From assembly GCF_000702905.1 (NCBI RefSeq), contig NZ_JNKR01000011.1:1-64000 (forward strand): a stretch of DNA of 64,000 bases, given 5' to 3'. The notes beneath the pieces were generated by a model. That model ran no database searches. It was not told the DNA's origin and saw nothing but the letters and a program-made list of their open reading frames with translations. This document shows, one piece after another, positions 39,380 through 48,736 of the stretch; positions within the stretch are counted from its first letter, which is position 1, and the number at the start of each line of letters is the position of its first letter. Both the position numbers and the translations under genes were made by a program. The DNA is from Mitsuokella jalaludinii DSM 13811 (GTDB lineage Bacteria; Bacillota; Negativicutes; Selenomonadales; Selenomonadaceae).

Positions 39380-43426
<4,047 letters not shown>

Positions 43427-43452
43427 TCCAAGAACCCCAACAACAAAAATAA

Positions 43453-43483
43453 AACCTTCCCCGCTCTTGCGGGGAGGGTTTTT
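43453..43483 (+). terminator. terminator after rpoBC
   Basis: AACCTTCCCCGC (43453-43464) pairs with GCGGGGAGGGTT (43469-43480), loop TCTT, then T-run. Confidence 0.9.
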
Positions 43484-43539
43484 GCATTATCAATGATAGG
43501 ATTGAGAAATACTAAGCGATATAGTCTGGAGGTATCACT

Positions 43540-44385
43540 ATGTCAGAAACATGCAACCATGACTGCGGCTCCTGCGGGACAACCTGTGGCCAGGACACAC
43601 GCAAGAAGGACTTCCACGAAGCGCCGAATGAGCTCAGCACAATCCGCCACGTCATCGCTGTCGTCAGCGGCAAGGGCGGCGTCGGCAAATCGCTCGTCAC
43701 AGGGCTGATGTCGGTGGCCATGAGCCGCAAGGGCAAGCACACGGGCATCCTCGATGCCGATATCACGGGCCCGTCCATCCCGAAGATGTTCGGCACGAAG
43801 GGCGAAGTGCGCGGCAACCAGGCTGGTGCCTATCCGGTGCGCACGGCCGGCGGCATCGAGGTCGTCAGCATGAATCTCCTGCTTGAGAACTCGACGGACC
43901 CCGTCGTCTGGCGCGGTCCGATCATCAGTGGTGTCGTCAAGCAGTTCTGGCACGACTTCATCTGGGAGGACATCGATTACCTGTTTGTTGACATGCCGCC
44001 GGGAACGGGCGATGTGCCGCTGACAGTCATGCAGTCCATCAAGCTCGATGGCATCATCATCGTCACGAGCCCGCAGGAACTCGTCTCGATGATCGTCGAG
44101 AAGGCCGTCAAGATGGCCGAGGGCATGAAGGTGCCAATTCTCGGCCTCGTCGAGAACATGAGCTACTTCGAGTGCCCCGACTGCGGCAAGCGCCACGAGA
44201 TTTTCGGCCACAGCCACATCGAAGAGATCGCGAAGTCGTACGGCCTCGATGTGCTCGCGCGCATCCCCATCGAGCCGCAGCTCGCCGCTAAGTGTGATGC
44301 TGGCCAGATCGAGACGGTCGCCGACACGCACATGCAAGACGCCGTTCAGAAGCTGCTCGACCGCGAGGAGAAAGCATCGGAGTGA
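43540..44385 (+). CDS. Mrp/NBP35-family Fe-S cluster carrier ATPase
   Basis: 281 residues. An N-terminal cysteine cluster C5, C9, C12, C16 is followed by the deviant Walker A GKGGVGKS at 44-51, DADITGPSIPKMFG, DMPPGTGDVPLTV and the conserved CPDCG pair. Mrp/ApbC proteins bind a [4Fe-4S] cluster and pass it to apo-proteins. The N-terminal cysteine cluster is the NBP35-like form. Its last 40 bases overlap, tail to tail, the AraC gene on the other strand. Confidence 0.9.
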   Translation: MSETCNHDCGSCGTTCGQDTRKKDFHEAPNELSTIRHVIAVVSGKGGVGKSLVTGLMSVAMSRKGKHTGILDADITGPSIPKMFGTKGEVRGNQAGAYPVRTAGGIEVVSMNLLLENSTDPVVWRGPIISGVVKQFWHDFIWEDIDYLFVDMPPGTGDVPLTVMQSIKLDGIIIVTSPQELVSMIVEKAVKMAEGMKVPILGLVENMSYFECPDCGKRHEIFGHSHIEEIAKSYGLDVLARIPIEPQLAAKCDAGQIETVADTHMQDAVQKLLDREEKASE

Positions 44386-45236
44386 TATCCGGCAGGCTCG
44401 TGACTGGCACGCCATTCCTTGGGCGAGCAGTGGAAGAGCGCATGGAAGGCTCGTGAGAATGTCGAGTAATCGCGGAAGCCTGCAAGATGGCTGATCTCGG
44501 TGACGGACTTTCCTGTGCGGAGCTGGTCGCGCGCGAAGAGCAGACGCTTGTTGCGGATGTAGGCATGCAAGCTGTAACCTGTATCGGCTTTGAACTTCTT
44601 CATGAGGTAATAGCGGCTCAGGAAGACGTGGCCCGCGAGCACCGCGATCGAGAGGTCGTCCGCGAGATGCTCGTTGATATAGGTGAGCACTTCCTGGATC
44701 TTGGGGTCGTATGAGACGGCGTCCAAGGTCTTGAGCTCGTGGTCCCCGAGGCTGCGGTTGAGCAGGATCAAGAATTCAATAAAGAGGATCTCTGTGTACA
44801 GCCCATTGGCGAAACCCTCGCCATGGGCTGTTTTTTCGAGCTTGTCCATGTGGAAGAGCAGGTCATGGCTGCGGTTCGGCAGCTGATGCATGACGCTGCC
44901 GTGTTCCCTGGCCTCCGTGAAGCACTGGGAGAGCTTCGCGCGTGTGTCGAGGCGCCGCAGGAAGTCCGGCGCGATGTAGATGACGATGCGCTCGTATGCC
45001 GCTTCATCGTCGAGGAAGACCGGCCGATGGATCTCGCCAGCCGTGACAAAGACGATGTCGTTTGGCCGCAGGTGATATGTCTTGCCCTCGATGATGTAGT
45101 CGACATGGCCGCCGAGGAACAGGATGATCTTATGGAAATCGTGGTAGTGAAAGGGGATATCGCGCAGCTTCCTGTCGTGCAGGTGGAAGACGCGGAAGTC
45201 GCTGCTCAGATAGCCCTTTTTGGGATACGTCTGCAT
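44346..45236 (-). CDS. AraC-family regulator with cupin sensor domain
   Basis: The ATG at 45236 has AGGAGGTG upstream and gives 296 residues; the frame further up to 45623 is not coding. Residues ~15-90 form a cupin (IPFHYHDFHKIILFLGGHVDYIIEGKTYHLRPNDIVFV), probably a sugar or small-molecule sensor. The C-terminal ~100 residues hold two helix-turn-helices (LSIAVLAGHVFLSRYYLMKKFK; SVTEISHLAGFRDYSTFSRAFH). Target genes are not obvious; the galactoside operon 2.7 kb away is a speculative candidate. Confidence 0.85.
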   Translation of the reverse strand: MQTYPKKGYLSSDFRVFHLHDRKLRDIPFHYHDFHKIILFLGGHVDYIIEGKTYHLRPNDIVFVTAGEIHRPVFLDDEAAYERIVIYIAPDFLRRLDTRAKLSQCFTEAREHGSVMHQLPNRSHDLLFHMDKLEKTAHGEGFANGLYTEILFIEFLILLNRSLGDHELKTLDAVSYDPKIQEVLTYINEHLADDLSIAVLAGHVFLSRYYLMKKFKADTGYSLHAYIRNKRLLFARDQLRTGKSVTEISHLAGFRDYSTFSRAFHALFHCSPKEWRASHEPAGYHSDAFSSRSSSF

Positions 45237-45362
45237 TAAAACACCTCCTGCTTCTATCATAGGACACTTTTTGCAATATATAAAGCATATTTTGTGATTT
45301 TCTTGCATATCGATGACTGCTATAATAGAGCCATCGCAAGCAAGAAAGAAAGGGTGACCGGT

Positions 45363-45689
45363 ATGATGATCGTTCGAATCTATCAGGTAGAGAAACAGGA
45401 ATATATGGTAATGGATGGCACGACGGGATTCATGCCGGGAGCAGCAGCCATCCGGCTGCTCGCACATCGCCGCTTCGGCGTCGGTGCTGACCGCGTTCTC
45501 GTCTTCACGGGCAGCGAGGCGATTCCCTCGTTCAAGGCCTTCACGGCAGACGGGGAGGAGCAGGAGATGCAGGAAAGTGATTATGCAGCACTCGCCAAGG
45601 TCAAGGAAGACTTTGAAGTCCACTTGACGGATTCCTTTGTACAGAGGATGCGCCAGGCCGATCGTGCAAAAATGGCAGCTGCCTGCTGA
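45363..45689 (+). CDS. DapF-like N-terminal half protein (orphan)
   Basis: Starting at the ATG at 45363 after AAAGGGTGA it has 108 residues. The centre reads AAIRLLAHRRFGVGADRVLVF followed by FKAFTADGEEQEM, which aligns with the N-terminal domain of diaminopimelate epimerase (LCDRxFGVGAD and FNADGSExExCGNG). The catalytic Cys of the CGNG motif is absent (QESDY instead), as is the whole second domain. It therefore cannot be a normal epimerase. It has a TATAAT -10 (45321-45326) and its own terminator, so it looks expressed and not a fresh fragment. Confidence 0.65.
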   Translation: MMIVRIYQVEKQEYMVMDGTTGFMPGAAAIRLLAHRRFGVGADRVLVFTGSEAIPSFKAFTADGEEQEMQESDYAALAKVKEDFEVHLTDSFVQRMRQADRAKMAAAC

Positions 45690-45701
45690 GTGGATTGTCA
45701 G

Positions 45702-45732
45702 GAGTCATTGCGAGAGCAGTGGCTCTTTTTTT
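45702..45732 (+). terminator. terminator after the DapF-like gene
   Basis: GAGTCATTGC (45702-45711) pairs with GCAGTGGCTC (45716-45725) with two wobbles, loop GAGA, followed by seven T. Confidence 0.8.
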
Positions 45733-45743
45733 ATGGAATATCT

Positions 45744-45772
45744 TTGACTTTTTGTTGTTTATGGTGTATATT
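45744..45772 (+). promoter_or_regulatory. htpG promoter
   Basis: TTGACT (45744-45749), 17 bases, TATATT (45767-45772), immediately upstream of the CIRCE element. Confidence 0.85.
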
Positions 45773-45784
45773 AATACCTGTACG

Positions 45785-45811
45785 TTAGCACTCGGAGACT
45801 ATGAGTGCTAA
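45785..45811 (+). promoter_or_regulatory. CIRCE element (HrcA operator)
   Basis: TTAGCACTC (45785-45793), nine bases, GAGTGCTAA (45803-45811): a perfect match to the CIRCE consensus. It lies at the expected transcription start of htpG and implies HrcA repression. Confidence 0.95.
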
Positions 45812-45859
45812 CACCTATCTGTGCATATAACAATCCTAGATAAAGAGAGGCAGATTTCC

Positions 45860-47815
45860 ATGGCAAAAGAAACACATGAATTCCAAGCGGAGACAAAGCA
45901 GCTGCTCGACCTCATGATTCATTCCATCTACACGAATCACGAGATCTTCCTGCGCGAGCTCATCTCCAATGCATCGGATGCAATCGATAAAGCGCATTTC
46001 GAGAGCCTGACAGACCGCAGCCTGCTCGAAGGCGATGAGGCCTTCCAGATCTTCCTGACGCCGGATGCAGAGCAGCACACGCTGACGATCGCCGACAACG
46101 GCATCGGCATGAACCGTGATGAGCTCATCGAGAACATCGGCACGATCGCGAAGTCCGGCACGAAGGCTTTCCTTGAGCAGCTCAAGAAGGCGAAAGAGGA
46201 GAACAAGGACCTGACGGACAAAGAGATGATCGGCCAGTTCGGCGTCGGCTTCTACTCGGCCTTCATGGTCGCGGACCATGTGACGATCGTGACGCGCAAG
46301 GCAGGCGAGAAGCAGGCCTGGAAGTGGGAGTCGAATGCAGACGGCTCCTACACCATTGAGGAGTGCGAGAAGGCGGAGCGCGGCACGGCCATCACGCTAC
46401 ACCTCAAGGATGCGTTCTGCGGCAAGGAAGCCGAGCAGGACTTCACGGACAACTACGAGCTCGAGCGCCTCGTCAAGAAGTACAGCGACTACGTCCGCTA
46501 CCCGATCAAGATGGACTTCACCTTCGAGGAGACACCGAAGGACAAGGACGGCAAGGAGATCGAGGGTGCCGACAAGATCAAGAAGGTCGAGACGCGCACG
46601 CTGAACTCCATGCAGCCGCTCTGGACGAAGAACAAGTCGGAGATCAAGAAGGAAGAGTACAACGAGTTCTTCAAGCACCAGTTCCACGAGTGGGAGGACC
46701 CGATGGAGGTCTTCCACACGAAGGCAGAGGGAACGGTCGAGTATACGGCACTCTTGGCCATCCCGGCGCATGCGCCGTTCAACCTTTACCAGACGGACTA
46801 CGAGCCGGGCCTGCAGCTCTACAGCCGCCATGTCTTCATCATGGACAAGTGCAAGGACCTGCTGCCGGACTACCTGCGCTTCATGAAGGGCCTTGTCGAC
46901 TCGCCGGATCTCTCGCTGAACATCTCGCGTGAGCTCCTGCAGCAGAGCCGCGAGCTCAAGGCCATCGGCCGTGCTCTGGAGAAGAACATCCTCAAGACGC
47001 TGTCGCGCAAGCTCAAGAATGACCGCGAGTGGTACGAGAAATTCTGGAACGAGTACGGCAAGTCGCTCAAGATTGGCATTTACAACAGCATCTACAGCGG
47101 CTCGGATACGGTCGACAAGCTCAAGGACCTCATCCTCTTCCTGAGCTCGAAGGAGGGCAAGCTCGTCACGCTCAAGGAATACGTCGAGCGCATGCCGGAG
47201 AGCCAGAAGAAGATCTACTACGCGACGGCCAAGGACAAGGAGACAATCGAGCAGCTGCCGCAGATGGAGACGCTGCGCGACAAGGGCATCGAGGTGCTCT
47301 ACCTGCTCGACCCGGTCGATGAATTCGCCATCGAGACGATCCACCAGTACGAGGAGAAGCCGTTCCACTCCATCAGCCGCGGTGACCTCGGCCTCGACGA
47401 TGCGGAGAGCCAGGAGGTCAAGAAGGAGACGGAGGAGATCCAGAAGGACAACAGCGACCTCATGAAGGATATCAAGGAAGCGCTCGGCGACAAGGTCGAG
47501 GACGTCAAGGTATCCTCGAGGCTCAAGTCCAGCGCTGTCTGTCTCGTCGCTGACGAAGCGGGTCCGTCGCTCGCGATGGAGCAGGCGTTCTCTCAGATGA
47601 AGAATCCGATGTTCAAGGCACAGCGCATCCTTGAGATCAACCCGCATCACGAGCTCTTCAGCCGCCTCAAGGAGATCCACGAGGCAGGCAAGGACAGCCA
47701 GGACTTCAAGGATTACTGCGATCTCCTCTACACGCAGGCCTTGCTGATCGAGGGCATCCTGCCGGAGAATCCGGTCGATTTTGCCAATAAAGTGGCCAAA
47801 CTCATGGCAAAATAA
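45860..47815 (+). CDS. htpG: HtpG chaperone (Hsp90)
   Basis: 651 residues from the ATG at 45860 (AGAGAGG upstream), beginning MAKETHEFQAETKQLLDLMIHSIY. It has the GHKL ATP site (ELISNASDAIDK, DNGIGM, IGQFGVGFYSAFMVAD) and the middle domain with LPDYLRFMKGLVDSPDLSLNISRE. It remodels client proteins under stress. The upstream CIRCE makes it an HrcA-regulon gene, which is unusual for htpG in Bacillus. Confidence 0.97.
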   Translation: MAKETHEFQAETKQLLDLMIHSIYTNHEIFLRELISNASDAIDKAHFESLTDRSLLEGDEAFQIFLTPDAEQHTLTIADNGIGMNRDELIENIGTIAKSGTKAFLEQLKKAKEENKDLTDKEMIGQFGVGFYSAFMVADHVTIVTRKAGEKQAWKWESNADGSYTIEECEKAERGTAITLHLKDAFCGKEAEQDFTDNYELERLVKKYSDYVRYPIKMDFTFEETPKDKDGKEIEGADKIKKVETRTLNSMQPLWTKNKSEIKKEEYNEFFKHQFHEWEDPMEVFHTKAEGTVEYTALLAIPAHAPFNLYQTDYEPGLQLYSRHVFIMDKCKDLLPDYLRFMKGLVDSPDLSLNISRELLQQSRELKAIGRALEKNILKTLSRKLKNDREWYEKFWNEYGKSLKIGIYNSIYSGSDTVDKLKDLILFLSSKEGKLVTLKEYVERMPESQKKIYYATAKDKETIEQLPQMETLRDKGIEVLYLLDPVDEFAIETIHQYEEKPFHSISRGDLGLDDAESQEVKKETEEIQKDNSDLMKDIKEALGDKVEDVKVSSRLKSSAVCLVADEAGPSLAMEQAFSQMKNPMFKAQRILEINPHHELFSRLKEIHEAGKDSQDFKDYCDLLYTQALLIEGILPENPVDFANKVAKLMAK

Positions 47816-47830
47816 ATTGTCATTCTTGAT

Positions 47831-47871
47831 AGGAGAGATAGGGTATACGTTTACCCTATCTCTCCTTTTTT
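47831..47871 (+). terminator. terminator after htpG
   Basis: A 15 bp perfect stem, AGGAGAGATAGGGTA (47831-47845) with TACCCTATCTCTCCT (47852-47866), followed by a T-run. Confidence 0.92.
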
Positions 47872-47944
47872 GCCCCCTCAAAACGACGAATTGCAACTAC
47901 AATTTAGAAAACAGATAAAAAAGTAAAAATCCCTGAAAATCCTC

Positions 47945-47973
47945 TTGCTTTTTATTATTTAATAGCGTATAAT
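47945..47973 (+). promoter_or_regulatory. galactoside operon promoter
   Basis: TTGCTT (47945-47950), 17 bases, TATAAT (47968-47973). Transcription should start near 47980, leaving a leader of about 150 nt. Confidence 0.8.
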
Positions 47974-47989
47974 ACTAACTGTAAACAAA

Positions 47990-48003
47990 AGAAAACGTTT
48001 GCT
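47990..48003 (+). promoter_or_regulatory. cre/LacI-family-like operator 1
   Basis: AGAAAACGTTTGCT matches the cre-type consensus TGWNANCGNTNNCA at most positions and has the LacI-family central CG. It lies just downstream of the promoter, where a bound repressor would block it. Confidence 0.6.
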
Positions 48004-48020
48004 ACTTGCGAAAGAAAAGA

Positions 48021-48073
48021 CAACAAGGTTACCAAGAGAACTCATCTCAATCATTTCGGATCCTGCCTTGTTG
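48021..48073 (+). other. leader hairpin between the two operators
   Basis: CAACAAGG (48021-48028) can pair with CCTTGTTG (48066-48073), enclosing a 37-base loop. No known riboswitch is recognised. Confidence 0.4.
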
Positions 48074-48095
48074 GGGAGAGCTGTCTTATCGAAAG

Positions 48096-48109
48096 AGAAA
48101 ACGTTTACA
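48096..48109 (+). promoter_or_regulatory. cre/LacI-family-like operator 2
   Basis: AGAAAACGTTTACA is nearly identical to operator 1, in the same orientation, 106 bp away (about ten helical turns). That spacing would suit DNA looping by a tetrameric repressor or CcpA-like control. Confidence 0.6.
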
Positions 48110-48130
48110 CTTTGAAAGGGGAAATCTACT

Positions 48131-48736
48131 ATGAAAGAGAATCTCGTCATCACGATCAGCCGTCAGTATGGCGCGGGCGGACGTGAGCTGGCCGGCATCC
48201 TCGCCGAGAAGCTCGGCATCAAGCTCTACGATCGCCAGCTCGTACATCTGGCAGCGGCAAAGCTCGGCATCCACGACCTTAGCGAAGACGAGCTGCTCGA
48301 AATGGAGAACACGGTCAAGCCGCTCTCGATGAGTTTCATCCCGTTCCATTCGTTCGGTACGCACATGGGCGAATCGAGCCAGGGCATGTTCATGAGCGAG
48401 TCCGCCGTCATCCGCAAGATTGCAGAGGATGGCTCGTGCATCTTCCTCGGCCGCTGCGCTGACTACGCACTGCGCAACAACGACAACCACTTCGATATCT
48501 TCGTCTGCGCAGATGATGAGTTCCGCGAGAAGCGCGGCCAGACGATCTACGAAGGCAAGAGCCTCAAGGAGCTCAACCGCGAGAACGAGAAGCGCGCCCG
48601 CTACTACAACTACTACACGGGCCGCACGTGGGGCGACGGCGCAAATTACGACCTCGTCGTCAACACGAGCAAGGGCGCTTCGCTCGAAGAGGTTGCCGAC
48701 GGCATCATCGCTTACATCAACAAGGTCAAAGCATAA
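48131..48736 (+). CDS. cytidylate kinase-like family protein
   Basis: 201 residues beginning LVITISRQYGAGGRELAGILAEKLG, the P-loop variant (RQYGAGG) of the cytidylate-kinase-like family PF13189, then IFLGRCADYAL and RARYYNYYTGRTWGDGANYDLVVNTS. It lacks the CMP-binding insert of true Cmk, so the substrate is unknown. It is the first gene of the galactoside operon, 39 bases ahead of the symporter. Its job in sugar use is unclear; it may be a regulatory or salvage nucleoside kinase. Confidence 0.82.
   Translation: MKENLVITISRQYGAGGRELAGILAEKLGIKLYDRQLVHLAAAKLGIHDLSEDELLEMENTVKPLSMSFIPFHSFGTHMGESSQGMFMSESAVIRKIAEDGSCIFLGRCADYALRNNDNHFDIFVCADDEFREKRGQTIYEGKSLKELNRENEKRARYYNYYTGRTWGDGANYDLVVNTSKGASLEEVADGIIAYINKVKA

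Follow-up and report, generated by a model that had tools for sequence, protein, structure and literature searches.

The window analysed here is a stretch of 64,000 nucleotides of Mitsuokella jalaludinii DSM 13811 (contig NZ_JNKR01000011.1, positions 1 to 64,000). It contains two divergent genes, one for a small protein related to the first domain of the diaminopimelate (DAP) epimerase DapF, which is called mini-DapF here, and one for an AraC-family regulator. These genes and the signals around them, in window positions, are as follows.

44346-45236, minus strand: divergent AraC-family regulator gene, 296 aa, with an AraC_binding cupin domain (PF02311) and an HTH_18 domain (PF12833)
45256-45284, minus strand: promoter-like site of the AraC gene, TTTATA-17-TATGAT, a consensus match only, whose -35 overlaps the predicted operator
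45264-45305, plus strand: predicted operator, two 21-bp direct repeats (45264-45284 and 45285-45305)
45264-45293, plus strand: scored operator core, ACACTTTTTGCAATATATAAAGCATATTTT
45318-45326, plus strand: extended -10 of mini-DapF, TGC TATAAT, without a consensus -35
45363-45689, plus strand: mini-DapF gene, an open frame from ATG to TGA for a 108-aa DapF domain 1 that stands alone, lacking the catalytic Cys and domain 2
45672-45686, plus strand: codons of the conserved, degron-like C-terminal tail, MAAAC in the host member
45700-45727, plus strand: intrinsic-terminator-like hairpin followed by a T run

The initial annotation described the frame as an orphan half of DapF, on the basis of two stretches resembling the DapF N-domain. 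These stretches, HRRFGVGAD and FTADGEEQEM (FxADGxExEM), do align with the N-terminal half of DapF, with TIGR00652 matching at E 0.0013 (protein residues 11-69 against profile positions 10-72) and phmmer recovering DapF 5ha4 at E 0.0085. The TIGR00652 score, 18.3 bits, lies below the curated cut-off of 114.65 bits; a Pfam scan of the single protein gave no match, a PF01678 search of the host genome returned the true dapF only and did not pick up mini-DapF, and PF01678 matched one of 35 aligned members at E <= 0.01. The relationship to DapF is thus marginal from the single sequence and becomes secure through the relatives and the predicted structure. A response regulator (phmmer, E 0.019) and a sugar phosphatase (NCBIfam, E 0.11) were rejected as identities of the protein because the predicted fold and the relatives indicate DapF.

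The annotation was also right that the CGNG motif and the second domain are gone, since neither of the catalytic-cysteine motifs (C73 and C217 in E. coli DapF) is present in mini-DapF, and domain 2 is absent from both the sequence and the predicted model. An intact dapF with both cysteine motifs was found elsewhere in the host genome (G000:C2:145120-145926). The expression signals attributed to the gene can be recognized as well, namely the extended -10, a purine-rich AGAAAGGG approximately 12 nt before the ATG, and the hairpin beyond the stop codon, while no Rfam families were found in 43000-48500. Farther downstream, before htpG, a perfect CIRCE-like inverted repeat, TTAGCACTC-N9-GAGTGCTAA, occupies 45785-45811; read against the CIRCE consensus, it suggests control of htpG by HrcA.

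An AlphaFold2 model of mini-DapF, built from a 35-member alignment, reached a pLDDT of 90.9 and a pTM of 0.82, with the last block as its least confident part (pLDDT 63). The top PDB matches of this model in Foldseek are DapF chains (E 1.7e-5), and VIA-align placed 18 DapF-type entries, one of them an O-ureidoserine racemase, at Z 10.1-11.5, followed by YddE/PhzF as the next family at Z 8.3. The best DapF match (Z 11.5, rmsd 2.3, 94 aligned residues) supplies the structural counterpart that the annotation had called for. When superposed on E. coli DapF, 89 residues of the model (within 2-90) are spread over positions 1-274 of the chain, and the 145-aa intermediate encoded in genome G048 (model pLDDT 86.1) covers positions 1-275 at Z 18.9 over 126 residues. 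Based on these aligned ranges, which are ranges only and include no residue pairs, and on the domain limits of DapF, the last strand of mini-DapF most likely corresponds to the C-terminal strand of DapF. The protein therefore looks as if it keeps domain 1 entire, with domain 2 cut out. When the intermediates were aligned by sequence to full-length DapF, their last 25 residues were not convincingly placed. The description as an orphan half holds insofar as the protein is catalytically dead and stands alone; it falls short in that mini-DapF appears to be more than an N-terminal half, with a domain 1 that looks whole.

Stand-alone relatives of mini-DapF without internal stops occur in at least 89 of the 380 genomes of the class, and in the class-wide search, which listed matches down to E about 1e-7, all 89 of those listed sit in family f1, the host's own. 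Among these matches, 86 are stand-alone members at E <= 1e-20, of which that of G294 covers profile positions 1-68 only, and three are more diverged stand-alone members (G025, G048 and G037, E 5e-13 to 2e-9). The remaining matches listed lie in frames of at least 266 codons, as expected of full-length dapF, with one exception, G305:C53:7187-7417 of family f23, a 108-codon frame matching the mini profile at E 9.9e-8, which may represent a fragment or have arisen independently. The aligned members are 105-144 aa long, and their invariant or nearly invariant columns are M1, P25, L33, G39, G41, D43, G64, E85, T89 and F92; within the GVGAD loop, G39 and G41 are found in 35 of 35 members and D43 in 34 of 35. 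Nei-Gojobori dN/dS was below 0.30 in 14 of the 15 computable pairs (16 chosen), the fifteenth, L042/L046, reaching 0.63. The family is under purifying selection.

The protein encoded by the divergent gene exceeds the cut-offs of both of its domains, with 74.9 bits for PF12833 and 47.4 bits for PF02311. An ortholog of this AraC-family regulator was found in all 89 of the mini-DapF genomes listed, based on class searches of 380 and 379 genomes; the two genes are adjacent in 77 of them and not in 12, some of the latter at contig ends. In the first set of loci, the AraC ortholog lies upstream in 29 of the 33 mini-DapF loci with at least 300 bases upstream. Hitch-hiking neighbours were rejected as the reason for the pairing, since other neighbour families each reach at most 7 of 35 loci and the two genes are retained together even when they lie apart. 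Among the 61 family genomes of the first set, 38 contain both genes, none the mini-DapF gene only, two the AraC gene only and 21 neither (Fisher p 2e-14, uncorrected for relatedness; related, non-independent genomes are likewise included in the operator and tail counts given below). The AraC gene without a mini-DapF gene was seen in three family genomes: in G260, which is cut by a contig end, and in G003 and G009, which keep the AraC gene and in which neither mini-DapF nor the operator was detected.

The promoter pattern GCAYTTTTTGCAATATNNAAAGCATATTTT scores at least 20 in 52 of 54 mini-DapF promoters, and an extended -10 follows the operator at a distance of 23-24 nt in 52 of 54. The low-scoring promoters are those of L064 and L066 (about 6), and L063, with 84 bases upstream, was excluded from the count. 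Across 52 sites, mean identity was 0.59 at an offset of 21 bp versus 0.17-0.49 at the other offsets between 12 and 33, revealing the 21-bp periodicity of the repeats. The operator matrix was both trained and scored on these promoters; loci outside the family and the single match in the host genome provide the independent support. Using two degenerate patterns genome-wide, the operator pattern matched one site without mismatch and four sites with up to three mismatches (control 1). When up to two mismatches were allowed, the tandem pattern matched the mini-DapF site and one poor site (control 0). The mini-DapF promoter is thus the single good site for the predicted operator in the host genome. 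A second, weaker operator-like site (score 19.3) was observed in G037 (L070 4556-4585, minus strand), just 3' of its diverged 121-aa mini gene and before another small ORF.

The loci at which the two genes are separated are informative regarding the direction of control. The operator is kept, with scores of 31.2 or more, at all seven examined mini-DapF genes lying clearly apart from the regulator gene (G004, G012, G027, G028, G269, G272 and G273; G023 was not counted as separated, because both of its contigs break off a short way upstream of the genes). Conversely, it is absent at four separated regulator loci with upstream DNA (L079-L082), which are the usable ones among the six AraC loci of non-adjacent pairs, L084 having almost no upstream DNA and L083 little. 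Because the operator stays with the separated mini-DapF gene and not with the separated AraC gene, the regulator most likely acts in trans on the mini-DapF promoter. Activation would fit this promoter, given that a consensus -35 is absent.

Another conserved element is the C-terminal tail. A tail of the pattern [AVSC][ACGSV] terminates 57 of 58 proteins and 43 of 44 distinct tails, compared with 14 of 250 neighbouring ORFs, or 14 of 240 if only those with a stop inside the locus are considered. The pattern was picked after the tails had been seen, and the background consists of mechanically called ORFs of at least 200 aa, some perhaps antisense and 10 of the 250 running off the locus. The penultimate residue is Ala in 45 of 58 proteins, and the last is C in 28, G in 12, A in 8, S in 6 and V in 4. 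The host tmRNA tag ends in YAYAA, and Ala-Ala is the ending read most strongly by ClpXP according to PMC7652416. The tail of mini-DapF is treated as a hypothetical degron because the tails mostly end in A-C or A-G, not in Ala-Ala.

Orthologs of the regulator are also found in other families, where they face other genes. The 26 AraC-ortholog loci examined outside the host's family comprise seven with a canonical dapF (L073 in f5 and six in f4), ten with a DapF paralog in which both catalytic cysteines are replaced by serine (L141-L147 and L149-L151, with another gene between in L151), five with ddl (L072, L074 and L076-L078), one with an alr-like gene (L075), and three with none of these (L148, L154 and L157). 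The ddl gene of L074 scores over its profile cut-off, the remaining ddl genes were identified from motifs, and the alr-like gene reaches 162.3 of 168 bits, just under the TIGR00492 cut-off. The operator scores 31.8 at the f5 locus and 25.9-34.4 across the eight loci of f4; its scores range from -0.8 to 30.6 for the five loci with ddl, and the alr-like locus scores 7.1; at the ten Ser/Ser loci, it scores at least 20 in one, 3.7-10.4 in five and below zero in four. The ddl and alr-like loci (L072 and L074-L078) point to a possible clade of AraC regulators that would control genes for peptidoglycan precursors.

The Ser/Ser paralog is full length, with EKSGNG and LASGSS in place of the two cysteine motifs, and a second, better-scoring DapF is present in each of eight checked genomes that carry it, the cysteines of this second DapF having been read for G009 only. 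One tested Ser/Ser member scores 247 bits with TIGR00652 and would therefore be named DapF. Further Ser/Ser proteins were found among phylum genomes in G459 and G619; of 249 phylum genomes, five passed the threshold, two of which contain canonical DapF. Additionally, G009, a genome of the host's family, encodes a Ser/Ser DapF of full length at a different locus from the regulator gene (L166 5152-6013), and the operator was not found upstream of that regulator gene.

The intermediates of 145-150 aa, of which the Ser/Ser paralog is the closest sequence match, score 106 and 102 bits with the Ser/Ser profile versus 44 and 42 bits with the canonical one. For the 35 mini-DapF proteins, the best profile is the Ser/Ser one in 25 and a canonical one in 10, many of them weakly, and the best single BLAST match of the host protein is a canonical DapF. 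A domain-1 tree of 39 rows, including six mini-DapF proteins on long branches and two intermediates, separates canonical DapF from the Ser/Ser, intermediate and mini-DapF sequences with a split of 99/100, present in 99% of 200 bootstrap trees. The EKSGNG and LASGSSS segments are absent from mini-DapF. A plausible route would start from a full-length Ser/Ser DapF paralog that then lost domain 2 by excision and retained domain 1 together with the closing C-terminal strand.

Compared with DapF (TIGR00652, PF01678), mini-DapF shares the domain-1 fold, by aligned range including the closing C-terminal strand, and the RxxGxGAD and ADG segments; it differs in standing alone, in scoring below the curated cut-offs and in having neither CGNG, domain 2 nor a catalytic Cys. 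The Ser/Ser paralog resembles mini-DapF in its AraC locus partner and its side of the tree, and differs from it in being full length, with both domains and with its SGNG and ERG segments kept. The partner has the same domains as other cupin AraC-family regulators and, like them, a 21-bp tandem direct-repeat operator, whereas it is distinguished by having one good genomic site, located before the gene of a pseudoenzyme. A precedent for a DapF fold working by contact without catalysis is provided by E. coli, in which, according to PMC4227774, DapF stimulates RppH by contact even without its catalytic Cys, the differences being that DapF there is a whole, active enzyme and that the partner is RppH. 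According to PMC7144940, an inactive DapF double mutant with a broken dimer retained both the binding and the stimulation of RppH.

Taken as a whole, mini-DapF would be a short-lived pseudoenzyme driven by its own regulator, derived from a Ser/Ser DapF and acting by protein contact, likely on DapF, a reading that we put forward tentatively and rate somewhat short of an even chance. In this scheme, the AraC-family regulator would sense a cue related to peptidoglycan or DAP through its cupin domain, a proposal prompted by the regulator orthologs that adjoin dapF, ddl or an alr-like gene in related families. It would then bind the 21-bp direct repeats and activate the extended -10 promoter, so that mini-DapF would be the single output of a dedicated AraC-family switch. 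The product would be unable to epimerise DAP and would act by protein contact, most likely on DapF via the domain-1 dimer surface, and the C-terminal tail would render it short-lived. Domain 1 of DapF has a dimer surface, and DapF is preferred as the target because mini-DapF has this same domain; the choice is a guess, albeit the favoured one, and the regulator protein is the main rival target.

Other explanations differ in how well they accommodate the same observations. A decaying dapF pseudogene would account for the resemblance to part of a longer enzyme, for the variable length between genera and for the one pair with a dN/dS of 0.63; however, 89 stop-free relatives among the matches listed, the purifying selection seen in the other pairs and the conservation of promoter, operator and tail leave this account with a negligible probability, and simple decay was rejected. 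The frame decay in relatives that would have marked a pseudogene did not appear in the conservation and dN/dS checks, and the suggestion that the gene had been repurposed is borne out by the spread of the family, the selection on it and its dedicated regulator and operator; the role that the annotation proposed, as a regulator or binding protein, is putative. A new enzymatic chemistry hosted by the DapF fold might explain why T89 is invariant and E85 and F92 almost so. It is nevertheless very improbable, as the invariant and nearly invariant columns include no Cys, Ser, His or Lys, and the model places E85 and T89 at its last strand or immediately beyond it.

The almost invariant GVGAD loop would likewise suit a homodimer in which two copies of mini-DapF form a pseudo-symmetric, DapF-like cleft that senses or buffers a small amino acid, an idea compatible with the construction of DapF from two similar domains. 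Against it, the CGN(G) active-site segment is gone, the Asn preceding ADG in DapF is not kept, and the loop residues G, G and D may have no more than a structural role, so that such a ligand-binding half seems improbable, if less so than a new enzyme. A more serious competitor, unlikely in our estimate, is a closed two-gene feedback loop in which the product of the divergent AraC gene would be bound by mini-DapF and thereby inhibited or tuned. AraC-family proteins have small anti-activators (ANR-like), and the co-retention of the pair in all 89 genomes listed, also when separated, the location of the one good genomic operator of the regulator at this very pair and the degron-like tail all agree with such a loop. 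However, the regulator loci L079-L082, with upstream DNA and without operator, imply that araC transcription would lie outside the loop at these loci, and the regulator orthologs of other families are found opposite genes for full-length enzymes. Contact with DapF remains our preferred proposal for mini-DapF.

Extended to the whole family, this proposal would mean that a peptidoglycan enzyme was turned, by way of a Ser/Ser form and under one ancestral regulator and operator, into a single-domain, rapidly degraded contact regulator with one target, DapF activity or precursor supply; in this full form, it is a rather unlikely possibility. Pseudoenzymes that regulate their parent pathway are a known kind, and it is rare, to our knowledge, for the stages between enzyme and regulator to survive. 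No description of the mini-DapF family was found in the open-access literature searched. Under orthologous regulators, living relatives hold an active-looking enzyme, a Cys-less full-length form, a one-domain form of 145-150 aa and the mini form of 105-144 aa; the order of events, with chemistry lost before domain 2, is thus testable, and the survival of intermediates gives mini-DapF more than ordinary interest. Furthermore, the findings suggest that genes for peptidoglycan precursors may be controlled by a clade of AraC regulators, and that TIGR00652 may assign the name dapF to some genes whose products are not epimerases.
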